DNA of 64,000 nucleotides from Rhodanobacter panaciterrae (GTDB lineage Bacteria; Pseudomonadota; Gammaproteobacteria; Xanthomonadales; Rhodanobacteraceae), in contig NZ_BMXT01000002.1 in NCBI RefSeq assembly GCF_014651895.1, positions 854,040 through 918,039 on the forward strand, given 5' to 3'. The translations under genes and the position numbers were made by a program. A model generated the notes under the pieces. That model did not search any database and was not told the DNA's origin. It was given only the letters and a program-made list of their open reading frames with translations. Of this stretch, positions 22,461 through 64,000 are shown in pieces (the stretch's first letter is position 1; each line of letters begins with the position of its first letter).

Positions 22461-23282
22461 TCAGCCCTTCACGCTGCCCAGCAGCAGCCCTTCTAAGTAA
22501 TAGCGCTGCATCGCCAGGAACAGCAGCAGCACCGGCAGCACGGTGACCACCGCGCCGGCCATCATCAGTTCGCTGTCTTGCGCGTGCTCGCGTGCCAGCG
22601 AGGCCAGCCCGATCGGCAAGGTGTAGTGCTCCTGCCCGGTCAGCACGATCAGCGGCCACATGAAGTCGTTCCACGCGGCGAGAAAGCTGAAGATAGCCAG
22701 CGTCACCATGATCGGCTTCAGCAGTGGCATCACGATCTGCATGAAGATGCGCCATTCGCCGGCGCCATCGATGCGCGCGGCTTCCAGCAGTTCGTCGGGA
22801 ATGCCGCGTGCGTACTGGCGCACCAGGAAGATGCCGAATACGGTCGCCATGCCCGGCACGATCACGCCGGCGTAGCTGTTGACCAGACCGATGTATTTCA
22901 GCAGCAGGAACAGCGGCAGCATCGCCACCTGCGCCGGAATCACCAGCGCGCCGATCAGTGCCTGGAACAGCCGCTCACGACCGGCGAAACGCAACTTGGC
23001 GAAGGCGTAGCCAGCCATCAGGTTGAAGGCCAGCGACAACACCGTGATCGCGCTCGACACCAGCAGGCTGTTGAGCAGGTAGCGACTCATGCCGGCATGT
23101 ACGAACAGTTCGCGGTAGTTGCTCATCGTGGCGTGCTTCGGCAGCAACGGCGGCGGCAGCGCGCTGGCACCACCGGGCGGCATGAACGACACCGACAGCA
23201 TCCACAGCAACGGGAACAGCGCGACCATCGTGGCGCCTATCAGCAGGCCATTGATCAGTGCCTTCGCCAGCCGCGGGTTCAT
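22461..23282 (-). CDS. Carbohydrate ABC transporter permease (MalG type)
   Basis: The 273-residue inner-membrane protein has six predicted helices and the EAA loop EAARIDGAGEWRIFMQIVMPLLKP around residues 165-190, which docks onto the ATPase. The family is CUT1 permease component 2. The first four bases of its coding region overlap the stop of the MalF-type permease gene. Together with the lipoprotein and MalF-type permease it makes an importer for oligosaccharides; the sugar is inferred from the neighbouring glycosidases, not from this sequence. Confidence 0.95.
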   Translation of the reverse strand: MNPRLAKALINGLLIGATMVALFPLLWMLSVSFMPPGGASALPPPLLPKHATMSNYRELFVHAGMSRYLLNSLLVSSAITVLSLAFNLMAGYAFAKLRFAGRERLFQALIGALVIPAQVAMLPLFLLLKYIGLVNSYAGVIVPGMATVFGIFLVRQYARGIPDELLEAARIDGAGEWRIFMQIVMPLLKPIMVTLAIFSFLAAWNDFMWPLIVLTGQEHYTLPIGLASLAREHAQDSELMMAGAVVTVLPVLLLFLAMQRYYLEGLLLGSVKG

Positions 23283-24172
23283 GCCGGTGCTCCATCGGGA
23301 TGCTCACCGCGGCGCGAGAGTTTCAGCATCAGTACGGTCACCGCGAACATGATGATGAACAGCAGGAACGCCACCGCCGAGGCGGAGCCGAGGTTCCACC
23401 ACTTGAAGCCCTCGTCGTACATCAGGTACAGCACGCTGGTGGTGCTCTGCAGCGGGCCGCCCTCGGTCATCACGTAGGGCTCGGCGAACAGCTGGAAATA
23501 GCCCGACACGGTAAGGATGCCCACCATCAGCAGGGTCGGCCCCAGCATCGGCCAGGTGATGTGGCGGAACTGGCGCCAGCTCGACGCGCCGTCGATGCGC
23601 GCGGCCTCGTAAAGATCGAGCGGAATCGCCTGCAGCCCGGCGAGGAAGATGATCATGTTGTAGCCGAAGTTCTTCCACACGGCGAACAGGATGATCGTCG
23701 GCATCGCCCAGTGCGGATCGCCGAGCCAGTCGACCGGATGGATGCCGAGTGCATTGAGTGCGTAGTTCATCCAGCCGTATTTGGTGTTGAACAGGTAGCG
23801 CCAGATCACCGCGGTGGCCACCACCGTGGTCACCACCGGCGCGAACAGCGCAGTGCGGAAGAACGGCTTGCATTTCGCCAGCGGCGAATTGAGCAGCAGT
23901 GCCGCACCCAGCGAAGCGCCCATCGACAGCGGCACGCCGACGGCAACGAAATACACCGTGTGACCGAGCGCCGACCAGAACAGCGGACGCTGCAGCAAGG
24001 CCCAGTAGTTCTGCAGCGCCACGAAGCGCAGGTTGTGGATATTCGCCAGCGCGTAGAGGTCGTAGTCGGTGAGGCTGAGCACCAGCGCGGCAATCACCGG
24101 CAACAGGAAGAACACGCCCAGCACCAGTAGCGCCGGTGCGAGGAACAGCCAGGCGGCGCGCTGCGGATTCAT
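23279..24172 (-). CDS. Carbohydrate ABC transporter permease (MalF type)
   Basis: The 297-residue inner-membrane protein starts MNPQRAAWLFLAPALLVLGVFFLLP. It has six membrane helices and the EAA loop YEAARIDGASSWRQFRHITWPMLGP (about residues 194-218). It is a CUT1 permease component 1. The ATG at 24172 overlaps the stop of the substrate-binding gene (ATGA); the frame is open further upstream, inside that gene, without membrane character. Confidence 0.95.
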   Translation of the reverse strand: MNPQRAAWLFLAPALLVLGVFFLLPVIAALVLSLTDYDLYALANIHNLRFVALQNYWALLQRPLFWSALGHTVYFVAVGVPLSMGASLGAALLLNSPLAKCKPFFRTALFAPVVTTVVATAVIWRYLFNTKYGWMNYALNALGIHPVDWLGDPHWAMPTIILFAVWKNFGYNMIIFLAGLQAIPLDLYEAARIDGASSWRQFRHITWPMLGPTLLMVGILTVSGYFQLFAEPYVMTEGGPLQSTTSVLYLMYDEGFKWWNLGSASAVAFLLFIIMFAVTVLMLKLSRRGEHPDGAPA

Positions 24173-25491
24173 CGCGCACTCCCGCTGGCGGCTTGTGGAT
24201 GATCGAGCACCCAGCGACGCTTCTCGAGGATGCGGTCGACCCGATGGTCGATTTCGACGGCGGCCTGGTCGATCGTCAGCTGGCCGGCGATCGCCTGCGC
24301 GGCGACCAGTTGCATCTCGGTGGCAATGCGTTCCCATTCCGGCACGGCCGGTGTCGGCCTGGCGTTTTCGAGTTGCTCGCGGAACGCGCGTGCCTTCGGG
24401 TCGTCGCGCAGCGCGCCGCCTGCCCACGAACTGCGTCGCGGCGGCATGTCGCCGAGCAGATCGTAGAAGCGTTGCTGCACGTCCGGTTGCGACAGGTATT
24501 CGATCAAGGTCCAGGCGGCTTCCTTGTGCCGCGAGCTGCGGAAGATCACCAGGCTGGAGCCACCCGCCGAACCGATGCCGGCAGTGGTCGGGCCGGGCAG
24601 CGGTGCGGTCGACCAGTCATCTTGCTGCGCGGCCGGCAGGCGCGAGCGGAACTCGCCGATGTTCCACGGACCGGACAGGTAAAACGCGTAGACGCCGTGG
24701 CCGAATTCCGACCACGGGTTGCCGGCTTCGACATTGGTGATCGCCGGCGCCTGGTGCAGCTTGAAGGTATCCACGTAGAACTCCAGCGCGCGCTTGAAGC
24801 CGGCGCTCTCGAAGTTGCCGTAGCGACCGCCGTCGCGCAGCAGTGGTTCATCCTGCTGCAGCGCCAGCGACATCAGCTGTTCGTATTCGTTGGTGGGCAG
24901 CAGGATGCCCCAGGTATGGCGCTGCGGATTGCTGAGCGTGGCGAGCATGCGTCGCCACTCGGCCCAGTTGCGCGGCGGTGCATCGAAGCCGGCCTGCTTC
25001 AGCAGATCCGTGCGGTAGAACAACAGCCGCGTGTCGACGTACCACGGCACGCCGTACAGCGCGCCGTCGATCACGTTGGTGGCCCAGATGCTGGCGAAGT
25101 AATCGCCCTGTTTGATTACCGCCGAGTGGTCGACGCGCGGTTGCAGCGGTTCCAGCGCATTGAGCGCCACCATTTCCGGCAGCCAGGTATTGCCGAGCTG
25201 GCTGAGGTCCGGCGTGGAGCCTCCGGCGAAAGCGGTGAGCAGTTTCTGGTGCGCCGCACTCAATGGCAGCTGCTGCACCTTGACGTGGATGTCCGGATGC
25301 GCGCGCTCGAACGCCGGCAGCAGCTTGAGGATGGCCTCGCCCTCGCGACCCACGGTCCAGAAGGTGAGCGCGTTGTCGTCGCTGCTCGATGAAGTACAGC
25401 CGCCGAGCAGGGTCAGGCAGGTCAACAGGCAGGCCATCAGCATGCCGCGCACCGGGCGCCGACGCATGTGGACGGCCGCCGCTGGATTCAT
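24169..25491 (-). CDS. Sugar ABC transporter substrate-binding lipoprotein
   Basis: The 440-residue family 1 solute-binding protein has a lipoprotein signal with lipobox LGGC (LLTCLTLLGGCTSSSS). The mature part shows the expected start (LTFWTVGREGEAILKLLPAFERAHPDIHVKVQQ) and binding-protein features (YGVPWYVDTRLLFYRTDLLKQAG, NPWSEFGHGVYAFYLSGPWN). It would deliver oligosaccharide to the two permeases. The ATG at 25491 overlaps the GH144-type gene's stop; an ATG at 25467 is an alternative that shortens the signal. An anchored binding protein in a Gram-negative host is uncommon but seen in xanthomonads. Confidence 0.94.
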   Translation of the reverse strand: MNPAAAVHMRRRPVRGMLMACLLTCLTLLGGCTSSSSDDNALTFWTVGREGEAILKLLPAFERAHPDIHVKVQQLPLSAAHQKLLTAFAGGSTPDLSQLGNTWLPEMVALNALEPLQPRVDHSAVIKQGDYFASIWATNVIDGALYGVPWYVDTRLLFYRTDLLKQAGFDAPPRNWAEWRRMLATLSNPQRHTWGILLPTNEYEQLMSLALQQDEPLLRDGGRYGNFESAGFKRALEFYVDTFKLHQAPAITNVEAGNPWSEFGHGVYAFYLSGPWNIGEFRSRLPAAQQDDWSTAPLPGPTTAGIGSAGGSSLVIFRSSRHKEAAWTLIEYLSQPDVQQRFYDLLGDMPPRRSSWAGGALRDDPKARAFREQLENARPTPAVPEWERIATEMQLVAAQAIAGQLTIDQAAVEIDHRVDRILEKRRWVLDHPQAASGSAR

Positions 25492-26951
25492 GGCTTTCCG
25501 GTCGCCTTGTCGAGCCAGCCGCCAGTGAAGCCGGCACGTTCCAGGCCCTTGCGGATGTACGGGTTCTTCTTCATCACGTTCCACACGAAATCGCTGCGCC
25601 AGTTCTCGATCATCAACACGATCGGACCCTGGTCGAGGCCCAGTTGTTCGGTGTCGACCCAGCCGATCGGCGTCAGCTTGCCGCTGCGCAGCAAGGTATG
25701 GGCGCGGAAACTTGGATTGAACGCGTCGACGAAGCCGTGCTCGTTGTAGATGTATTTGCCGTAGCGGAGCGTCATCTCCTGCAGCGCGGGAATCACCAGC
25801 TCGGGCGCAAACGCGATCGAGCTGGCGGCCGCGGTCGGCACCAGGGTGCCGTCGTCGACGATATAACCGAGTCCGGCGCCACGAGCCGTATAGCCGTAGA
25901 ACTGCTCATGCTGACGGTTGCCTTCCACGATGATGCCGCCGGGGCCGTTGCTGGCCGTCAGGCCCCACACGTTCTTGCCGTAGCCGGTCCAGCCGGCCGG
26001 ATTGGCGATCGCGTAGTTGCGCTGGGCGATCACCGCACGGCGGCTGTTCTCGAAATAGTCCAGATCGTGCTCGCGATTCCACGCGTCGCGGATGCCGCGA
26101 AAGTCGATCCACACATGGCTGAACTGATGTCCGAACAGTGGCCCGAAGTTCAGCAGTTGCTCGCCCTGGAACTCACCCCAGCTGCGCGAATAGGTGCTCG
26201 TCCACGCGGTCCATGCGTCGGCGCCAACCGGATGGGTGGGCGAGCCAAGCGCCAGCACATAGACCAGCATGCCTTCGTTATAGCCCTCCCAGTCATGCGG
26301 GATGAACTTGCCACCCGGCGTCCAGCCCATGCTGATCAGCGGTTTGCGCACCTGTGCCCAGGTCCAGTTGACCCGGCGGTAGATGCTGTCGGCCAGCGTG
26401 CGGATCTCGCGTTCCTGCGGCGTGTCGCGATCGTAGTAGGACTGCGCGAACAGCACGCCACCGAGCAGCAAGGTGGTATCCACGGTGGACACTTCGGTCC
26501 AGCGCGCGAAGCGCTTGCCGCTCTGCATGTCGAGGAAGTGGTAGTAGAAACCCTGATAGCCGCTGTCGTCGTCTTCGCTGCCGCCCTGCGGTGCATGTTC
26601 GAAGAAGCGCAGCGTGGTCAGGGTGCGTTCGATCGCCTGCTCGCGCGTGATGTAGCCGCGCTCCACGCCCACACCGTAGGCGGTGAGACCGAAGCCGACG
26701 GCGGCGATGCTGGAAAAAGAGTCGCCGGGGTAGTGATCGGGGATCAGTCCATTGACGGGATTCGCGCTGTCCCAGAAAAAGCGGAAGGTGCGCTGTTCGA
26801 GGTCGTTGACCAGCGCCGGGACTGCGGGAGCCCGGGTTGACGTGGCTGTGGCGACCTCACCGTTTGGTCGGGCCAGGCTGGCGGGTGCGGTGAGAGCCAG
26901 CGTTGTGCCGAGCAGGACGGGAAGCCATGCGTGCCGGTTGAAAAACATCAT
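25488..26951 (-). CDS. GH144/glucoamylase-domain (PF10091-type) exported beta-glucanase
   Basis: The 487-residue protein has a signal peptide (MMFFNRHAWLPVLLGTTLALTAPASLA) and the PF10091 glycoamylase-type domain. This covers LEQRTFRFFWDSANPVNGLIPDH at residue about 50, VSTVDTTLLLGGVLFA, GWTPGGKFIPHDWEGYNEGMLVYVLALGSPTHP, and GPLFGHQFSHVWIDFRG, ending with GIIVEGNRQHEQFYGYTARG and LDQGPIVLMIENWRSDF. Characterised GH144 members are endo-beta-1,2-glucanases; substrate here is inferred from that. It is the first gene of the enzyme/importer operon, following two hairpins after the TonB receptor gene. Confidence 0.9.
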   Translation of the reverse strand: MMFFNRHAWLPVLLGTTLALTAPASLARPNGEVATATSTRAPAVPALVNDLEQRTFRFFWDSANPVNGLIPDHYPGDSFSSIAAVGFGLTAYGVGVERGYITREQAIERTLTTLRFFEHAPQGGSEDDDSGYQGFYYHFLDMQSGKRFARWTEVSTVDTTLLLGGVLFAQSYYDRDTPQEREIRTLADSIYRRVNWTWAQVRKPLISMGWTPGGKFIPHDWEGYNEGMLVYVLALGSPTHPVGADAWTAWTSTYSRSWGEFQGEQLLNFGPLFGHQFSHVWIDFRGIRDAWNREHDLDYFENSRRAVIAQRNYAIANPAGWTGYGKNVWGLTASNGPGGIIVEGNRQHEQFYGYTARGAGLGYIVDDGTLVPTAAASSIAFAPELVIPALQEMTLRYGKYIYNEHGFVDAFNPSFRAHTLLRSGKLTPIGWVDTEQLGLDQGPIVLMIENWRSDFVWNVMKKNPYIRKGLERAGFTGGWLDKATGKP

Positions 26952-26979
26952 TGATTGTCTGCCGTGCCTTGCGGGTGGT

Positions 26980-27019
26980 GATCCGTTGAAGCCGTGCTTG
27001 CACGCGACTTCAACGGATC
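26980..27019 (-). promoter_or_regulatory. Cruciform-type hairpin between TonB receptor and glucanase genes
   Basis: Arms GATCCGTTGAAG (26980-26991) and CTTCAACGGATC (27008-27019) are perfect over 12 bases, and the loop itself contains CGTGC and GCACG pairing. There is no T-run on the minus strand, so it is not a standard terminator. Position suggests a transcript-stabilising or processing element between cistrons. Confidence 0.7.
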
Positions 27020-27027
27020 GTCCGAAT

Positions 27028-27052
27028 GTCCGCCCGCAGTGTACGGGCGGAC
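27028..27052 (-). promoter_or_regulatory. Second intercistronic hairpin
   Basis: Arms GTCCGCCCG (27028-27036) and CGGGCGGAC (27044-27052) are perfect with a seven-base loop. The hairpin lies 35 bases past the TonB receptor stop on the minus strand, without a T-run. It stands in tandem with the 26980-27019 hairpin. Confidence 0.7.
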
Positions 27053-27086
27053 CGGTGGAGCGGCAGTACAGCTTGCCGCAGGTGAA

Positions 27087-29954
27087 TCAGAACGTGTAAC
27101 GCGCACCGATCTGGAAGCGGCGGGTCTGGTTCGGATCGGCGCCGGTGGCTTGCCCGAACGTCGGATCCGGCGTGGCGAAATTGCCGTAGTGATAGAAGTT
27201 GGTGTTGTAGCCGTTGATCACATCGCGGTTGAGCGCATTGAAGACATCAAAGCGCAACTGCAATGCCTGGCTCTGGCCCCAGCGCCACTCCTTCGATATC
27301 GCCAGATCGAGGTTGATGTATGGACGTCCATACTTGCCGTTGATGTACTGTGCGCAGTTGTAATCGCACCCGACGAGGCCCGGTGCGGGGTTGTAGCCCA
27401 TCGAGTAGCCGTAGGGCGCGCCCGAGTTGTAGGTGGCGATGGCACTGAAGCGGGTATCCCACGGTCCGTGGACCTGTCCGCTGAGGACCAGGTTGTGTTT
27501 CGGACCGACGTAATCCTTCGGGTATCCGCTCGGGTCAGCGTAGTCGAGCGAGTAGTTGTCGTTGCCGCTCTGGTGCGCGCGCTGATAGGTGTAGGCGATA
27601 TCCACCCCCCATCCCGACGCCGTTGTATACGGCTTGCTGATGCCAATCAGCACGCTGCTCGACTGGGTTTTCTTGTACGCGTTGCTCAACACCACATACG
27701 ACACCGCGGCACCGGGCGGATTGATCAGCGTGAAGCCATAACCCGGTACGCGGTTGCCCCAGACCCAGGTGAATTGCCGGTAGCCGAGTACACGGGACAG
27801 CGTCAGCGAACCGGTCCAGTCACCCATCACCTGCTTGATGCCCACGCTGAACTGGTCGGTGTACGGTGCCTTGGTGTTGTTGTTGATCGTATCGATTTCG
27901 GTGCTGAAGCCGGCTTGGCCGGAAGCGAGAATGCTGTTCAGCCCCGCGGGAGTGAGGTATTTCGGATCCCACGCGATCGTTCCGGGCGTGGCGCCGTTCG
28001 GGCTGAACAGGAAGGTGTAGTTCGGCACCTGCGAATGGATCGGTTCCTGGCTGAGCCAGTCGTACGGCGTGCGTGAGTAGTAGCGGCCGGCGCCACCGAA
28101 CACGGTGGTGCTGGCATCGCCGTCCTTGCTGACGTCGAGCGAGAAACCCAGACGCGGCTGGATCTCGTCCTTCTGTGCCTTGCGGTTGTTCCCGGTGCTG
28201 ATGTTGTCCTGCAGGCCGTTGTACTGGAGTACGTCGTATTGCGACGCCGGCGTGACGTAGTTGTTGTCGAGCGCATTGGTCTCGTAGTCCCAGCGCACAC
28301 CCAGGTTCAGCTGCAGGCGCGAGGTGACATCCCAGTCATCCTGCGCATAGATACCCAGCTGGTTGTCGTGGATGTGGACCCCCGTACCTTGCGGTGAATA
28401 CACCGCGCGATAGGGCGTGTTGAATCCGCCTGGCTGATCGAGGCTGTAGCTGTAGGACGGTACCGCATTGTTGTTCTGCAACAGCCGCAGGCTGTAGTCG
28501 GCATATTTGACGCCGATCTTCACGGTGTGGTCGCCATGCCACGACAGGCCCGAGAAGGTCAGGTCGTCGCGCAGGGTGATCTGATCCTGGGCCTTGTTCT
28601 GCAGGCCGGAGGCACCGCCGAGGGTGGCGGCTCCTTCGTAATTTTGCTGGACCAGATTCGGTTCGGCAGCCACCGGATTCCACGTATAGCGACCCGAGTC
28701 GATCAGCAGGTCGTTGGTCCAGATGTCGCCGCGCGCCTCCCACTTCAGCACCAGATCGCCGACATCGTTCTTGCGGCTGGTACGACCCTGGTACGCCTGC
28801 GTGCCATTGTTGAAAATGACCTCGTTATCCTTGCGATCGGAATAGCTCAGGTCGACGTTGTTGTCCTGATTTGGCTGCCAGCTCAGCTTGCCGAACCAGG
28901 CTTTTTCATTGAACGGTACCGAGAAGGTGCCGTTGTACTGCGCGAACTGCGGGTAATTCGGGCTGATCGCCACGTTCGCATTGTTGACGTCCTTGCGTTC
29001 TTCGTAGTTGATGAAGAACTGCAGCTGATCCTTGATGATCGGGCCGCCGATGTTGAAGCCGCGCTGCTGGCGCTTGTAGTCGGGCTTCTTCACGTGATTC
29101 TTCTTGTCGAAGGAATCCTGCGCGATCATCGACTGGTTCTGGAAATAGTCGTAGACGGTGCCGTGGAATTCGTTGCTGCCTGACTTGGTGACCGCGGTGA
29201 TGATGGCGGTGCCGGCCTGCTCGTACTCGGCCTTGTAGTTCTGTGTAAGCACGCGATATTCGGCGATCGCTTCCTGCGAGAACGGATTGCCGCGGCTGGA
29301 ATCCTGACCGACCAGACCTCCTTTCAGGATGTCATTACGCTGGCTGGCGCCGTCGATAAAAACGTTTACATTTTCGGCCGACTGACCGCCTGACGAGAAC
29401 GATTTATTGGTTGGGTCATGCGAGATGGTGACGCCCGGCACCAGCTGCGCAAAGTCGAGGAAGTTGCGCTCGTTTTGCGGCAGGTTGGCGATCTGCGCCT
29501 GCGAGACGTTTTGTGCCACTTCCGAAGTGCGTGTCTCGAACAGCGACGCTGCGCTTACGGTGACGCCGGTCAGGTTGGTAGCGTTGGCGGTGCTGGGTGC
29601 TGCCGCTGCCGCCGCGGTGTTCAGATTCAAGGTGAGCGACTGACCCACATGTACGGCGACGGTCTGGTTCGCACTGCTGCCGTTGCCGCTGGCCACGATG
29701 TTGTAGCTGCCTGGCGCCAGACCGACCAGGGTGTAGTTGCCGTCGGCGGTGACCTTCGATTTGTTGACGAAGCCGGTGGTGGTATTGGTGGCGACGACGT
29801 CGGTTGGCACCTGCCCTTGCGGTGCCGTGATATGGCCGCGCAGGGTGGCCGTGCTGTTCTGGGCGTAAACGACGCCCGGCAGTGAAAGTGTGCTGGCGAG
29901 CAAGCCGGCGAAAGCCAGCGAGATCTGTCTGGATAGCATGCGTTGATTGACCAT
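27087..29954 (-). CDS. Oar-like TonB-dependent receptor
   Basis: The 955-residue outer-membrane protein has a signal peptide ending at VVYA-QN. An N-terminal carboxypeptidase-regulatory-like domain follows (TATLRGHITAPQGQVP to VGQSLTLNLN, about residues 35-110), then a plug (TSEVAQNVSQAQIANLPQNERNFLDFAQLVPG) and a beta-barrel ending in GARYTF. This layout is the Oar subgroup. It would take up large glycans or oligosaccharides using proton-motive force via TonB-ExbBD, which are not in the window. GGGAGAGGG and GTCAGG precede the ATG. It lies between the LacI gene and the glucanase/importer genes, suggesting it serves the same sugar. Confidence 0.93.
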   Translation of the reverse strand: MVNQRMLSRQISLAFAGLLASTLSLPGVVYAQNSTATLRGHITAPQGQVPTDVVATNTTTGFVNKSKVTADGNYTLVGLAPGSYNIVASGNGSSANQTVAVHVGQSLTLNLNTAAAAAAPSTANATNLTGVTVSAASLFETRTSEVAQNVSQAQIANLPQNERNFLDFAQLVPGVTISHDPTNKSFSSGGQSAENVNVFIDGASQRNDILKGGLVGQDSSRGNPFSQEAIAEYRVLTQNYKAEYEQAGTAIITAVTKSGSNEFHGTVYDYFQNQSMIAQDSFDKKNHVKKPDYKRQQRGFNIGGPIIKDQLQFFINYEERKDVNNANVAISPNYPQFAQYNGTFSVPFNEKAWFGKLSWQPNQDNNVDLSYSDRKDNEVIFNNGTQAYQGRTSRKNDVGDLVLKWEARGDIWTNDLLIDSGRYTWNPVAAEPNLVQQNYEGAATLGGASGLQNKAQDQITLRDDLTFSGLSWHGDHTVKIGVKYADYSLRLLQNNNAVPSYSYSLDQPGGFNTPYRAVYSPQGTGVHIHDNQLGIYAQDDWDVTSRLQLNLGVRWDYETNALDNNYVTPASQYDVLQYNGLQDNISTGNNRKAQKDEIQPRLGFSLDVSKDGDASTTVFGGAGRYYSRTPYDWLSQEPIHSQVPNYTFLFSPNGATPGTIAWDPKYLTPAGLNSILASGQAGFSTEIDTINNNTKAPYTDQFSVGIKQVMGDWTGSLTLSRVLGYRQFTWVWGNRVPGYGFTLINPPGAAVSYVVLSNAYKKTQSSSVLIGISKPYTTASGWGVDIAYTYQRAHQSGNDNYSLDYADPSGYPKDYVGPKHNLVLSGQVHGPWDTRFSAIATYNSGAPYGYSMGYNPAPGLVGCDYNCAQYINGKYGRPYINLDLAISKEWRWGQSQALQLRFDVFNALNRDVINGYNTNFYHYGNFATPDPTFGQATGADPNQTRRFQIGARYTF

Positions 29955-30057
29955 GACCTGACCCTCTCCCGTAATCGGTGCAAGTAGTTCGGACTGTCTG
30001 CTGTCGCGTTGCTTTGTGTTGCCCGTGAGCGGAACGCCCCCACGATCCGTTCAAGCA

Positions 30058-30082
30058 GAACCGCCTCATGTCGATGCGGTTC
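30058..30082. promoter_or_regulatory. Inverted repeat in the lacI to TonB-receptor gap
   Basis: Arms GAACCGC (30058-30064) and GCGGTTC (30076-30082) flank an 11-base spacer, within the 167 bases between the lacI stop and the receptor start. It could be a transcript hairpin ending lacI or a protein-binding site for the receptor promoter. It does not resemble the AAACG-type LacI operators found elsewhere in the locus. Confidence 0.35.
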
Positions 30083-30121
30083 CAGCCGGCGCCGCCCTGC
30101 GCCAGTCTTGATGTCTGTCCG

Positions 30122-31132
30122 CTATACGAGCGGTGCGCCGCTGGACACCCGCACCACCAGTTCGGCGTTGACGCGGCGATGCGTGCCGGCCATCACGGTG
30201 TCCGGGTTGTCGATCTGTTCGCCCAGCAGCTCCATGGCCTGGCTGCCGAGTTCGGCGATGTGCACCTGGATCGTGGTCAGCGGCGGCGTTACGTAGCGCG
30301 CCATCGGCACGTCGTCGAAACCGCTGATGGCGATTTCCTCGGGTACGCAGATACCGGCGTCGCGCAAGGCCGCCATGCATCCGATCGCCATCATGTCGTT
30401 GGCAGCAAATACGGCATCCGGGCGTGGCCGCAGTGCCAGCACCTGCTGCCCGGCGCGGTAACCGGATTCCTCGCTGAAGTCACCGTGCAGCACGATCGCC
30501 GGACTGTCCGGTGAGTGGCTGGCGAGCGCTTCGCGGTAGCCGAGTTCGCGTTCGGCGGCATCGCGGTTGCCGGATGGCCCCTGGATGAACACGATCCGTC
30601 GGTGGCCGAGTGCCAGCAGGTGTTCGACCATAAGACGTGCCCCACCATCGTTGTCCACTGACAGCGCGCAGTAGTCGGCGCCGGCCAGCCGGGTGTTCAT
30701 CAGCACGGTGGGCAGGTCATGCGGCAGGTTCTGCTGCAGGAAGGCGGCGTCGGCATGCGGCGACATCAGCAGCAAGCCATCGACGCGGCCCTGCATCGCG
30801 CGCAAGGCCGCGGCGGCGGCATCGGCGTCGTCATGGGAGCTGGAGACCAGCAGGTGCAGGCCCCGCGCCCGCGCGGCCAGGTCGATGCCGCGGATCAGCT
30901 CGGAAAAGAACTCGCCATACAGATCCGGCAACAGCGCGCCGATGGTGTTCGTGCGGCGGGTGATCAGCGTGCGTGCCGCGGCGTGCGGCACATAGCGCAG
31001 GCGACTCGCGGCATCACGAATACGCTGGCTGGTCTCGGCAGTCACTCCGCGGCCGTCATTCAGGGCGCGAGAGACGGATGCCACGGAGACCTTGGCTTCA
31101 CGCGCTACGTCTTTGATGGTTGCCGCTGCCAT
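30122..31132 (-). CDS. LacI-family transcriptional regulator
   Basis: The 336-residue repressor has the LacI helix-turn-helix at residues 5-24 (TIKDVAREAKVSVASVSRAL) and the hinge helix RLRYVPHAAARTLITRRT. The effector domain contains AVFAANDMMAIGCMAALRDAGICVPEEIAISGFDD. It is the likely regulator of the sugar locus: it lies immediately upstream of the TonB receptor. LacI-type 14-bp sites occur upstream of this gene (31175-31188) and between the GH1 and ATPase genes (34178-34191). Inducer unknown, presumably a glucan breakdown product. Confidence 0.95.
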   Translation of the reverse strand: MAAATIKDVAREAKVSVASVSRALNDGRGVTAETSQRIRDAASRLRYVPHAAARTLITRRTNTIGALLPDLYGEFFSELIRGIDLAARARGLHLLVSSSHDDADAAAAALRAMQGRVDGLLLMSPHADAAFLQQNLPHDLPTVLMNTRLAGADYCALSVDNDGGARLMVEHLLALGHRRIVFIQGPSGNRDAAERELGYREALASHSPDSPAIVLHGDFSEESGYRAGQQVLALRPRPDAVFAANDMMAIGCMAALRDAGICVPEEIAISGFDDVPMARYVTPPLTTIQVHIAELGSQAMELLGEQIDNPDTVMAGTHRRVNAELVVRVSSGAPLV

Positions 31133-31538
31133 AAGGAGTTGCCCGGAAGCTCCGAAACCCAGTCATGGCGGCAACGTAAACGTTTTCATGGCGAGTTGTA
31201 AAGTGCCTGTAAAGACAAGATTTTTGCTGCGTTGCGGAATGTTTTTTCCAGCTTTGGCCACCTTCCGGTGCCCGGATCGTTAGCGTGGCGATTGATGGTG
31301 GCAGTCCGCTATCGGAGAAATCCCGCTGTGGCAGTGCAACAACCGGTCGATAAAGGTTTGAGCGATCGGCGATTTACCAAATCTGTGGATGGCGTCCTAC
31401 TTTTGCCGGATTCCGACTATTGTTAAAAAATCCATTCCGTCGTTAAATCAAGGTTAATCTTCGCGGACTCAACCGACTGTATCCTCAACTTCCCGCGACA
31501 TTGAACAAACCACGGCCAAGTTGCTGTTTTTTCATACC
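31133..31538. other. 406-base divergent intergenic region with LacI site
   Basis: No supported gene is present. The left end holds the lacI leader and a LacI-type operator (31175-31188). The remainder (about 31200-31480) is markedly AT-richer than its neighbours, with runs such as TTGTTAAAAAATCC near 31422. It probably contains the promoter of the SPFH-type gene, but I could not pick one confidently. Confidence 0.55.
31175..31188. promoter_or_regulatory. LacI-type operator upstream of lacI
   Basis: CGTAAACGTTTTCA has the central CG and AAACGTTT core of LacI/GalR-family sites. It agrees at 11 of 14 positions with the palindrome at 34178-34191. It lies 43 bases upstream of the lacI start, so autoregulation is likely. 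Confidence 0.7.
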
Positions 31539-31997
31539 ATGATGACTCTGTTGACCCTCCTGCTCCTGCTGCCTGTCGTGCTGATTGCCAGCGCGGTCAA
31601 GGTTGTGCCGGTCGGCCAGGTCTACAGTCTGTATCGGCGCGGCAAGCCGGTGCGTCTGCTGCAGGCGGGCATGCATCTGGTGCTGCCGTTGCTGGACCGG
31701 GTCGCGCACAAGATCAATCTGGCTGGTCAGACGCTGCGTTTCGAGCAGCCGCTGGCCGATGCGCATGATGTGCGTGGCACGGTGTACTGGCAGGTGCTGG
31801 AGCCGGAGCGCGCCGACGCGGTGTTCGAACAGGTCGATCAGCTGATTCGCCGCGGCGCGCAGGAAGCCTTGCGTGACGAGCCGGCGACCGACCATGCCGA
31901 TCGCCGCGACTTGAGTGCACGCGTGAAGCAGTCCTTGAACAGCGCGCTGCGCGAGCGCGGCATGATGGTGACCCGGGTCGAGCTCGACGTGGCCTGA
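31539..31997 (+). CDS. Short SPFH/Band 7-like membrane protein
   Basis: From the ATG at 31539 the product is 152 residues: one N-terminal membrane helix (MMTLLTLLLLLPVVLIASA) then VKVVPVGQVYSLYRRGKPVRLLQAGMHLVLPLLDRV. This matches the start of SPFH (stomatin/prohibitin) domains, up to RVELDVA. Normal SPFH proteins are longer, with a coiled-coil tail; here the protein ends after the domain core. TTG at 31521 and ATG at 31542 are alternative starts, and none has a clear Shine-Dalgarno. An intrinsic terminator follows. Function unknown. Confidence 0.75.
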   Translation: MMTLLTLLLLLPVVLIASAVKVVPVGQVYSLYRRGKPVRLLQAGMHLVLPLLDRVAHKINLAGQTLRFEQPLADAHDVRGTVYWQVLEPERADAVFEQVDQLIRRGAQEALRDEPATDHADRRDLSARVKQSLNSALRERGMMVTRVELDVA

Positions 31998-32058
31998 GTC
32001 GTGAATCGCGTCAGGGCGACCGAGAGCGCCCACGCCACAGGGGATTTGTGAATCTTGC

Positions 32059-32084
32059 AACCCGCTTCGGCGGGTTTTTCTTTT
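32059..32084 (+). terminator. Intrinsic terminator after SPFH-type gene
   Basis: Stem AACCCGC / GCGGGTT with a TTCG tetraloop is followed directly by TTTTTCTTTT. This is a textbook rho-independent terminator on the plus strand. It separates the SPFH-type gene from rsmG. Confidence 0.92.
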
Positions 32085-32158
32085 GTCGGTTTGCATCCGT
32101 GCTGGCATCGTTGCCGTCCGGCCGGGATACTGCCGGCCCCGGATCACAGGAAAGCATC

Positions 32159-32788
32159 ATGGCTGCGCGCGACGCCTTGCAGGCACGACTCGAACAAGGC
32201 ATTGCCGAACTGGGACTGAGCCTGCCGGTCGACGCCGTGCCGCGCCTGCTCGACTATCAAGCCCTGCTGGAACGCTGGAACGCGGCCTACAACCTCACCG
32301 CCGTGCGCGATCCGGCGGAGATGGTCACCCGCCACCTGCTCGATTCGCTGGCGATCCTGCCGTACGTGCAAGGCCAGACCTTGGCCGACCTCGGCACCGG
32401 ACCGGGTCTGCCGGGCATTCCGCTGGCGATCGCCGCGCCGGGACGCGAGATCCTGCTGGTCGATTCCAATGGCAAGAAGGTGCGCTTTCTGCGCGAAGCG
32501 ATTCGCGCGCTGAAGCTCGATGGCGTGCGCGCGGTGCAGTCGCGGGTCGAAGACGTCGAAGGCCAGTACGACTGCGTTACCGCGCGCGCGTTTGCCAGCA
32601 TGGCTGACATGCTCGGCTGGGGCGGCCATCTGCTGGCCCCGGACGGGATCTGGCTGGCGATGAAGGGCAAGCGGCCGGACGACGAGTTGCCGGGGATTCC
32701 GTCAGGATTCGAAGTGCGCAGCACGCATGAACTGGCGGTGCCGGGGCTGCCGGCCGAGCGCCATCTGCTGGTGCTCGGCCGCACCTGA
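32159..32788 (+). CDS. rsmG: 16S rRNA (guanine527-N7)-methyltransferase RsmG
   Basis: RsmG (GidB) methylates G527 of 16S rRNA using S-adenosylmethionine. The 209-residue protein has NLTAVRDPAEMVTRHLLDSLA, the SAM-binding LADLGTGPGLPGIPLAI, and LVDSNGKKVRFLRE. AGGAAA precedes the ATG at 32159. Normally parA follows immediately; here 2.6 kb with the GH1 and ATPase genes intervenes. Confidence 0.96.
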   Translation: MAARDALQARLEQGIAELGLSLPVDAVPRLLDYQALLERWNAAYNLTAVRDPAEMVTRHLLDSLAILPYVQGQTLADLGTGPGLPGIPLAIAAPGREILLVDSNGKKVRFLREAIRALKLDGVRAVQSRVEDVEGQYDCVTARAFASMADMLGWGGHLLAPDGIWLAMKGKRPDDELPGIPSGFEVRSTHELAVPGLPAERHLLVLGRT

Positions 32789-32794
32789 TCCGGA

Positions 32795-34150
32795 TTATTC
32801 GTCCAGCACGCCGCCGTTGCTCTCGATCACCTGCGCGTACAGTTTTGCGGTGGCTTTCGGGGTGCGCTGCTGGGTGGCGAAGTCGACGTGGTACAGCCCG
32901 AAGCGCTTGGAGAAACCCAGCGACCACTCCAGGTTGTCCATCAGCGACCACGCGTAATAGCCCTTCAGGTTCACCCCGGCGTCGATTGCCCTGTGCAGCG
33001 CCTTGAGGTGTTTGCGCAGATAGTTGGTGCGTAGCGGATCGTCGAGCACGCCGTTCTCGGCCACCGGCGGATCGTAGAACGCCGAACCGTTTTCAGTGAT
33101 GTACAGCGGGATGTCGCCGTAGCGATCCTTGAACCAGGTCAGCGTGTCGGTCAGGCCTTGCTCGAACACTTCCCAGCCCGTTTCGGTATAGGTCTTGTTC
33201 GGCTGACGCACCGGCACCGCCTTCAACGGATACGCGTTCGAATCGTGCTTGACCACCGCGCGGGTGTAGTAGTTGATGCCGACGAAGTCGACCTTCTGGT
33301 TCGTCAGTTTGAGATCGTCCTCGGGGAAATCCGGCCACGCGTCGCCGAAGATCTCCTTCAGCTCGGGCGGGTAGCTGCCGAGCAGCGCCGGATCGGCGAA
33401 CTGCTGGTTCATGTAGGCATGCGCGCGACGCGTGGCGGCCACATCTTCGGCGCTGTCCGAATGCGGGTATTTCGGCTCGATGTTGAACACCACGCCGATC
33501 TCGTGCTTCCCATGTGCGCGATACGCCTGGATGCCGGCGCCACTGGCGCGCATCAGGTTGTGCGCGGCGATCGGTGCCTCGTATTTGTTGCGGTGGCCCG
33601 GCGCCAGCGCACCGTGCAGATAGCCGCCGTCGGTGACCACCCACGGTTCGTTGAGCGTGGCCCAGCGCGGCACGCGGTCGTCCAGCGCCTTGAACATCAC
33701 TTCGGCGTACTCGGCGAACCAGTGTGCGATGTCGCGATTGAGCCAGCCGCCGCGGTCGTCCAGCGCGGCCGGCAGGTCCCAGTGGAACAGCGTGGCGTTC
33801 GGCGCGATGCCGTTTTCCAGCAATTGATCCACCAGTCGCGAATAGAAATCCAGTCCCTTCGGGTTGATCCGGCCGGTGCCCTCGGGCAGTACGCGCGCCC
33901 AGTTGATGCTGAAGCGGTAGCCGTGCAGGCCCAGCGCTTTCATCAACTGCACGTCGTCCTTGTAGCGACGGTAGTGATCGCAGGCGATATCGCCGGTATC
34001 GCCGTTGCTCATCATCCCCGGCGTATGCGCGAAGCGCTGCCAGATGCTGGGGCCGGCGCCATCGGCCAGTGGCGAGCCTTCGATCTGGTAGGCCGAGGTG
34101 GCGGCACCCCAATGGAAGCCGTCAGGGAAGCGGAAGCTGGGGCGGGTCAT
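32795..34150 (-). CDS. GH1 family beta-glucosidase
   Basis: The 451-residue protein has no signal peptide, so it is cytoplasmic. The acid/base Glu168 is in TLNEPW, the nucleophile Glu353 in YITENGSAF, and the N-terminal signature FRFPDGFHWGAATSAYQIEGS is complete. GH1 enzymes split beta-linked glucosides, fitting final hydrolysis of imported oligosaccharides. It is convergent with rsmG and divergent from the ATPase gene, sharing a promoter region that carries a LacI-type operator 28 bases upstream of its start. Confidence 0.95.
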   Translation of the reverse strand: MTRPSFRFPDGFHWGAATSAYQIEGSPLADGAGPSIWQRFAHTPGMMSNGDTGDIACDHYRRYKDDVQLMKALGLHGYRFSINWARVLPEGTGRINPKGLDFYSRLVDQLLENGIAPNATLFHWDLPAALDDRGGWLNRDIAHWFAEYAEVMFKALDDRVPRWATLNEPWVVTDGGYLHGALAPGHRNKYEAPIAAHNLMRASGAGIQAYRAHGKHEIGVVFNIEPKYPHSDSAEDVAATRRAHAYMNQQFADPALLGSYPPELKEIFGDAWPDFPEDDLKLTNQKVDFVGINYYTRAVVKHDSNAYPLKAVPVRQPNKTYTETGWEVFEQGLTDTLTWFKDRYGDIPLYITENGSAFYDPPVAENGVLDDPLRTNYLRKHLKALHRAIDAGVNLKGYYAWSLMDNLEWSLGFSKRFGLYHVDFATQQRTPKATAKLYAQVIESNGGVLDE

Positions 34151-34177
34151 GGGGATACCTGCGACTAAAATGCTTGA

Positions 34178-34191
34178 TGTAAACGATTACA
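34178..34191. promoter_or_regulatory. LacI-type operator between GH1 and ATPase genes
   Basis: TGTAAACGATTACA is a near-perfect 14-base palindrome of LacI/GalR type. It is placed 28 bases before the GH1 start and about 90 before the ATPase start. It links these two genes to the lacI-centred locus 3 kb away. Confidence 0.8.
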
Positions 34192-34281
34192 TGGGCAGAA
34201 TAGCCCAATGCTCCGCCGATGTGCAGACAAGCGCATGCTTCGGCGGGACGGCCATCGTGGCCTTACGCACCGGAGATGCCG

Positions 34282-35373
<1,092 letters not shown>

Positions 35374-35442: not shown

Positions 35443-36292
35443 ATGGCTCGCATCATCGCTGTCCACCACTGCCGTCAATCTCGCCGCTGCGCTGGCTGCC
35501 GCGAAGCGCAAGGTATTGCTGGTCGACTTCGATCCGCAGGGCAACGCGACGATGGCCTCGGGCATCAACAAGCGCGAGATCAAGGCCAGTGGCTGCGAGG
35601 TGCTGCTGGAGGAAGTGGAGATCAGCGCGGCGATCGTGCCGACCGATGCGCATTACGACCTGCTGCCGGGCAACGGCGACCTCACCGCCGCCGAGCTGAA
35701 GCTGATGGACGCGCTGGCGCGCGAGCATCGGCTGAAGGAGCTGTTGGCGAAGGTCTCGGCGAACTATCACACCATCCTGATCGACTGCCCGCCGTCGCTG
35801 AACCTGCTCACCCTGAATGCGCTGACCGCCGCCGATGGCGTGCTGATTCCGGTGCAATGCGAATACTTCGCGCTGGAAGGCCTGTCCAGCCTGCTCGACA
35901 CGGTCAAGGCGGTACGTCACCGGCTGAATCCGACACTGGAGATCGAGGGCCTGCTGCGCACCATGTACGACGTGCGCAACAACCTCGGCAACGAGGTTTC
36001 CGCCCAGCTCACCCAGCATTTCGGCGACAAGGTGCTGCGCTCGATCATCCCGCGCAACGTGCGTCTGGCCGAAGCGCCCAGCCACGGCCAGCCGATCCAT
36101 CTGTACGACCGCAGTTCGCGCGGCGCGATCGCCTATATCGGCCTGGCCGGCGAAATCATCCGGCGCGAACGCGCGCTGACGCGCACCGACCACGTCGATC
36201 CGGTCGACAACATTGAACCGCCGGCGGCCGCATCCGCGCACGGCGACAGCGGCCCGACGCTCAAGGCGCCGGCCGCCAACCATCAGGAATAA
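35443..36292 (+). pseudogene. parA: Chromosome-partitioning ATPase ParA, frameshifted: Walker A motif deleted
   Basis: ParA uses ATP to move ParB-parS complexes. The reading starts normally at 35443 (MARIIAV) and then continues in another frame as TTAVNLAAALAAAKRKVLLVDFDPQGN to the stop at 36292. Between them the P-loop expected in ParA (NQKGGVGK) is absent. The junction GCT-GT/CCACC implies loss of about 26-29 bases near 35462. The rest is intact: LLVDFDPQGN, LIDCPPSLNLLTLNAL, QCEYFALEGLSSLLDTV, FNVRLAEAPSHGQP-like RNVRLAEAPSHG. Reading from TTG 35516 gives 258 residues without ATP-binding lysines. It may be a true mutation or a sequence/assembly error. Confidence 0.88.
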
Positions 36293-36295
36293 AGC

Positions 36296-37165
36296 ATGGC
36301 TGCTGCGAAGAAACGTGGATTGGGACGCGGGCTCGATGCCCTGCTTGGCGGCGACGGCGAGGCTGCGCCGTCCGTGCTGGCGCAGGAAGGCGAGTTGCGC
36401 ATGCTGCCGATCCAGCAGATCCAGCCCGGCAAATACCAGCCGCGCCGGCACTGGAACGATGAGGCGCTGGACGAACTGGCCGCGTCGATCAAGGCGCAAG
36501 GTGTGATCCAGCCGGTGGTGGTGCGCGAACTCGGCAAGAACAGCTACGAGCTGATCGCCGGTGAACGTCGCTGGCGCGCCGCGCAGCGTGCCCAGTTGGG
36601 CGAGATTCCGGCGCTGATCAAGAAAGTATCCGAAGAAGCCGTGCCGGCGATGGCACTGATCGAGAACATTCAGCGCCAGGACCTCACTCCGCTGGAAGAA
36701 GCCGATGCGCTGAAGCGTTTGATCGACGACTTCGACCTCACCCACCAGCAGGCCGCCGACGCGGTCGGCCGCTCGCGTGCATCCGTGTCGAACATGCTGC
36801 GGCTGACCGAGATGCCGGAATCGATCAAGCGGCTGCTCGACGACGGCAAGCTGGAAATGGGTCACGCGCGCTGCCTGCTGACCCTGCCCGAGCACGATGC
36901 CGAAAGGCTGGCGCTGGAAGCGGCACGCCACGGCTGGAGCGTGCGCGAGCTGGAAGATGCCGCCCGGCGCGCACAGCAGGAGCCGAAGGGCAAGGCGAAG
37001 AGCGCGTCACCGCGCGACGCCAACGTCGCCGATCTGGAACGCCAGCTCAGCGAACGCTTCGCCACCCGGGTCGAACTGGCGCAGGGCCGTGGTGGCCGCG
37101 GCAAGCTGGTGATCCATTACCACAGCAACGACGAGCTGGACGGGATTCTCGGCAAGATCCGCTGA
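36296..37165 (+). CDS. parB: Chromosome-partitioning protein ParB
   Basis: ParB binds parS, slides as a CTP-dependent clamp and is moved by ParA. The 289-residue product starts with the KKRGLGRGLDALLGG segment that contacts ParA, followed by the CTP-binding/ParB box GERRWRAAQRA (about residues 90-100) and IENIQRQDLTPLEEADA. The DNA-binding helix-turn-helix (THQQAADAVGRSRASVSNMLRL) and a C-terminal dimer domain complete it. It is intact, starting 3 bases after the parA stop with AGGAA upstream. Confidence 0.95.
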   Translation: MAAAKKRGLGRGLDALLGGDGEAAPSVLAQEGELRMLPIQQIQPGKYQPRRHWNDEALDELAASIKAQGVIQPVVVRELGKNSYELIAGERRWRAAQRAQLGEIPALIKKVSEEAVPAMALIENIQRQDLTPLEEADALKRLIDDFDLTHQQAADAVGRSRASVSNMLRLTEMPESIKRLLDDGKLEMGHARCLLTLPEHDAERLALEAARHGWSVRELEDAARRAQQEPKGKAKSASPRDANVADLERQLSERFATRVELAQGRGGRGKLVIHYHSNDELDGILGKIR

Positions 37166-63956: not shown

Positions 63957-64000
63957 TCCTCCCGCGTCGCCACACGGCTTCGATGAGCCAGACAGGAGCG

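Follow-up and report, generated by a model that had tools for sequence, protein, structure and literature searches.

The parA gene of Rhodanobacter panaciterrae, which codes for the motor protein that helps separate copied chromosomes, lacks exactly 29 bases in its assembly when aligned with the intact gene of the nearest genome found (G034, locus L009, hereafter the sister), and with these it has lost the entire Walker A motif, KGGVGKT. The loss is confirmed in the assembly. We put at about even the chance that it is a very recent null allele of a single strain, one that would deprive the ParB–parS–SMC half of the segregation machinery of its ParA motor. An assembly error is almost as likely as such a fresh allele.

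The window, by which we mean the whole stretch of 64,000 nucleotides analyzed (G000:C2:854040-918039), belongs to a genome of 3.46 Mb in 12 contigs, with an estimated completeness of 99.94% and a contamination of 0.01. Its position 64000 is apparently the end of contig C2 (918039). The sister, which served as the reference for the comparisons below, is 94% identical over the parA–parB query. Upstream of parA, the window features a sugar uptake block (22461-35373) around rsmG (32048-32788), in which an ABC permease and a binding protein were recognized by Pfam, and a receptor, a LacI-type regulator, a glycosidase and an ABC ATPase by eye.

The deletion and the reading frames of parA

The junction can be placed after position 35462 or after 35463, and the two ends have one base in common. 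The deletion removes nearly all of codons 8-17, including every residue of KGGVGKT, and shifts the frame (Table 1). Beyond it, TTAVNLAAALAAAKRKVLLVDFDPQGN resumes at 35465 in the +1 frame, which closes with the TAA at 36290-36292; in a six-frame search this remainder matches PF13614 from profile position 16, and the rest of the AAA_31/ParA domain is present. The first-pass annotation had described a parA in which MARIIAV runs directly into another frame without the P-loop, a loss of 26-29 bases that is not a multiple of three, and an intact parB starting three bases after parA. Each of these observations is borne out: the motif is gone and the frame is shifted, the comparison with the sister fixes the loss at 29 bases, and parB, at 36296, retains all three ParB domains.

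Table 1. Features of the parA–parB locus, in window coordinates.
Feature	Position	Strand	Basis
Surviving first seven parA codons, MARIIAV	35443..35463	+	Reading from the ATG at 35443
Junction of the 29-base deletion	35462..35464	+	Comparison with the sister locus L009
parA remainder, residue 18 onward, +1 frame, free of stops up to its own TAA	35465..36292	+	
258-aa ORF with a TTG start inside the remainder, without Walker A	35516..36292	+	PF13614 from profile position 35
Shifted-frame translation starting at the original ATG, 257 aa	35443..36216	+	Pfam search
parB, complete: ParB_N, HTH_ParB, ParB_C	36296..37165	+	Pfam

No single open frame spans parA from start to stop: the frame of the ATG departs after 7 codons and stops at 36216, and the 257-aa out-of-frame product found no Pfam match at 0.001. 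The frame of the gene body is open back to 35399, with ATG, GTG and TTG all absent before 35516; the 258-aa ORF that begins there scores 148.3 bits against PF13614 (profile positions 35-177), as compared to 213.3 bits (2-177) for the intact protein of the sister. The deviant Walker A motif is absent from both readings of the locus. Since there is no start in the body frame before 35516 and a frameshift cannot restore the P-loop, every product of the locus would lack Walker A. A programmed frameshift was accordingly rejected, as a return to the body frame still yields a protein without the P-loop; neither recoding nor an alternative start offers a remedy, because the loop itself is missing.

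As for how the bases might have been lost, an origin by repeat slippage is unsupported, since the two sides of the junction share a single base. In a DNA fold computed for the same stretch of the sister, some of the lost bases may pair with bases just downstream, an observation to which we give no weight. Nine of the 848 possible 29-base deletions in parA remove all seven motif codons, a proportion that does not amount to a test, because the finding itself had been picked for hitting the motif. On the minus strand, a 492-aa ORF lies antisense to parA–parB (window 35453-36931); its codon composition, with a GC1 of 0.84 exceeding its GC3 of 0.71, resembles that of a shadow cast by the genes on the sense strand.

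Phyletic distribution of intact parA

The first-pass annotation had proposed a comparison with parA of close relatives, and these prove to be intact. Among the 58 relative loci checked out of the 109 fetched (L009-L065 and L067, from two collections in which some genomes are possibly duplicated), all 58 have KGGVGKT in the corresponding position; 55 were recognized with a strict pattern and three by inspection. Of five further stretches from the genus, four (G003, G013, G033 and G022) encode the motif, and the fifth (G029) ends within parB and holds no parA. In a survey of 45 genomes of the genus, a ParA match at 1e-80 was obtained in 43, starting from residue 1 in 42 of them and from residue 17 in this genome; the two without a match, G011 and G029, are both 89% complete. 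Across the order, 383 of the 398 genomes drawn had a ParA match at 1e-60, and among the matches listed all but that of this genome start at residue 1; G241 (5e-64) and G262 (1e-61) are weak matches counted in the 383 that fall outside those listed, and they may have an incomplete ParA.

We also probed six genomes without a ParA match for ParB. It is present in G029, at a contig end, and in G051, where a piece of parA lies beside it; no ParB match at 1e-20 was found in G011, G420, G156 and G197. G420, a 99% complete genome of the same family, was thus matched by neither ParA (1e-60) nor ParB (1e-20), either because both are truly missing or because the assembly is incomplete there; within the order draw, the eight other genomes that share its genus code, g30, do have ParA.

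Within the genus sample, the deletion itself appears confined to a single genome. A 27-mer across the junction, allowing up to 3 mismatches, occurs in just one of the 45 genomes of the genus, namely this one, and by that pattern the allele was not found to have spread any further. The exact 258-aa product is listed for one contig, as long as the coordinate at which the window ends on C2, and its 90% cluster comprises 8 member sequences. Among the relatives of this ParA that bear an organism name, the closest are Rhodanobacter proteins. Among the listed titles and abstract openings from the literature, we found no report of a natural parA loss or of this case in Rhodanobacter (parA, RB-TnSeq).

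Sequence constraint and the age of the deletion

Beyond the junction, parA differs from the sister by 24 synonymous and 4 nonsynonymous substitutions, and in the core (residues 18-253) a single residue differs. Depending on the outgroup, 12-14 synonymous and 3-4 nonsynonymous changes fall on the branch of this genome, and 8-10 and 0-1, respectively, on that of the sister; these counts are too few for the nonsynonymous excess on the former to be read as relaxation. A long-standing decay into a pseudogene was rejected, given a body frame without a stop codon, a dN/dS of 0.055 against the sister and an unconstrained share of the branch of no more than 14-17% (95% bound, assuming 0.08 as the baseline dN/dS). 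Because the remainder is so well preserved, the deletion is either very young or present in the assembly only.

The same preservation might be taken to mean that the P-loop-less remainder is made, for instance from the TTG at 35516, and kept for an ATP-independent role such as binding ParB. The open 258-aa frame with its low dN/dS and the openness of the body frame upstream to 35399 are consistent with such a product, but constraint had acted along some 83% of the branch or more before it could have mattered, so that the low dN/dS says little. Further, the first part of the fold is missing along with the P-loop, and no relative with the same form was found in the genus. We therefore regard a retained P-loop-less ParA as extremely unlikely.

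A recent allele or an assembly error

What speaks for a real allele is the cleanness of the 29-base loss and the lack of any other clear frame break in the compared parts of the window. The latter comes from a codon-position-filtered scan of 90 relative ORFs, with 11 flagged, that superseded an earlier unfiltered one (72 relative ORFs, 18 flagged, many of them antisense); both relied on sequence from G020, G034, G035 and G021, which together span the window from about 10 to 61 kb, though not continuously. Of the 11 flagged cases, only parA against G034 displays two pieces of high identity that adjoin each other but lie in different frames. Three others come from a permease aligned to its paralogue with 38-40% identity, another has second pieces of 43% and 32%, and the six remaining are partial matches that could hide other differences.

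It is nearly as probable that the deletion is an error of the consensus or the assembly and that parA is whole in the strain itself. The strong constraint on the remainder, with its one core residue off the sister, is the same picture that an error would be expected to give, and the intactness of parA from residue 1 in 42 of the 43 matched genomes of the genus points the same way. So does the region upstream of the ATG, where the 84 bases immediately preceding it are identical to the sister, and the 120 bases before it contain two differences, located 115 and 85 bases upstream. Moreover, the P-loop DNA is GC-rich, and a word of 17 bases that it has in common with the minD gene of the same genome ends at one of the two possible placements of the right breakpoint. 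This last is a weak hint of misassembly, because the word is shorter than those commonly used by assemblers, whose usual word lengths exceed 17 bases. Also counting against an error, the deletion is not a homopolymer slip, the P-loop DNA finds a single further match in the genome when up to 2 mismatches are allowed (six places with up to 3), and the compared parts of the window show no second clear frame break. If it is nonetheless an error, it serves as a warning that deposited genomes may falsely show a core gene as knocked out.

The search for a second ParA

Besides parA, four proteins of the genome match AAA_31: MinD (367.3 bits to TIGR01968, cut-off 212.9), Mrp/ApbC (412.1 bits, cut-off 348), a Wzc-type polysaccharide kinase, and a 210-aa orphan ParA-like ATPase with the motif KGGCGKS (C6:18277-18906). 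The orphan scores 113.6 bits to its best family (cut-off 180), and the intact ParA of the sister 118.9 bits to the same model; thus, these scores do not separate the two. As the orphan is found in all 45 genomes of the genus, it is ancestral rather than a response to the loss of parA. No second Soj-type ParA was found among the AAA_31 matches of this 99.94%-complete assembly, nor was a second copy of parA–parB, for which a 1866-base query matched the genome once over its full length and twice over 28 bases. The suggestion of the first-pass annotation that the strain might use a second ParA is hence not supported, with the other ATPases of this type being MinD, Mrp/ApbC, the Wzc-type kinase and the genus-wide orphan; its two other options, life without ParA function and an error in the assembly, are those weighed above.

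We consider it very unlikely that one of these ATPases has replaced ParA. The orphan and the Wzc-type kinase, the latter on C2, do exist as candidates, and in Streptococcus pneumoniae, which lacks parA, the Walker-type ATPase CpsD is described as being involved in the movement of ParB–parS (PMC7022226). However, the presence of the orphan throughout the genus makes it older than the loss, neither it nor the kinase adjoins parB, and the family scores of the orphan are not decisive.

ParB, parS and SMC

The partners of ParA appear to be in place. The product of parB, which adjoins parA and starts three bases after its stop, scores 196.1 bits to TIGR00180 (cut-off 58.45), has its N-terminal, HTH and C-terminal dimerization domains above their cut-offs (PF02195, PF17762 and PF23552), and shows a dN/dS of 0.046 against the sister. 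SMC is of full length (1032 bits, cut-off 567). Scanning the genome with the parS consensus at up to 2 mismatches yielded three sites, namely C2:843892 (one mismatch), C2:843268 (two) and C1:1094854 (two). The first two are candidate parS sites within recF (L126 1476-2579; G000:C2 near 843.2-844.4 kb), about 46 kb from parAB and outside the window. By analogy with P. aeruginosa, where one parS-like site with two mismatches bound ParB poorly (PMC5098823), the two-mismatch sites may be poor binders of ParB.

Predicted consequences for chromosome segregation

On the known mechanism, in which Walker A, in its deviant form KGGXXK[S/T], contacts ATP (PMC9178275) and the ParA dimer is stimulated by ParB (PMC7333895), ParA is predicted to be dead in this genome, with ATP binding, dimerization and DNA binding lost. 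Lacking the P-loop, the 257-aa out-of-frame product would be unable to bind ATP, as would one from a later start; in the absence of ATP binding no DNA-bound ParA dimer would form, and ParB–parS would not be actively moved. ParB could still load SMC. The out-of-frame reading from the ATG ends 79 bases before the start of parB, and ribosomes on that frame would still reach the vicinity of this start, such that little polarity on parB is expected.

If it behaves like parA mutants of Pseudomonas, the strain would be expected to be viable but slower, with more anucleate cells. Engineered strains devoid of ParABS are viable and produce more anucleate cells in many species, the exceptions being Caulobacter, Hyphomonas and Myxococcus (PMC7333895). 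In P. aeruginosa, inactivation of parA is reported as non-lethal, with anucleate cells up more than 100-fold and ParB prone to degradation (PMC2895232); given this instability of ParB in parA nulls, the ParB half may not be fully working without ParA. In Xanthomonas citri, a member of the same order, several attempts at deleting parB are reported to have failed (PMC3937727), which suggests that loss of the Par system may be costly in this order. From these data on ParABS-less strains, P. aeruginosa and X. citri, we would expect the isolate, if the allele is real, to grow with a segregation cost.

Comparison with known systems

In biological terms, the gene is a well-known one and the allele is one with loss of function. 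If real, it would provide a ready test of segregation by ParB–parS–SMC without the ParA motor, in the very order where the deletion of parB in X. citri failed (PMC3937727). A stronger version, in which this Rhodanobacter strain does well on ParB, parS and SMC in the absence of a ParA ATPase, and constitutes a natural experiment splitting SMC loading by ParB from ParA-driven movement of the origin in a group that otherwise almost always has the pair, strikes us as rather doubtful.

The closest known counterpart is the chromosomal ParA/Soj of ParABS systems, as represented by the gene of the sister and the solved chains 1wcv and 8ray. The R. panaciterrae locus shares with it residues 18 onward, including the DFDPQGN and ILIDCPP segments, as well as the parA–parB order and the upstream region; it differs in being frameshifted, in lacking all of KGGVGKT, and in that its 258-aa ORF starts past the P-loop. 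The engineered parA nulls of P. aeruginosa (PMC2895232, PMC5098823) resemble it in the loss of ParA with parB in place in a gammaproteobacterial ParABS system, but are laboratory-made, have a known phenotype, and their ParB is prone to degradation. With S. pneumoniae, whose ParB–parS–SMC system is described as having no parA (PMC7022226), it shares the presence of ParB and SMC without a ParA partner; there, however, the absence of ParA is a property of the species, whereas here it is seen in one genome with a fresh break.
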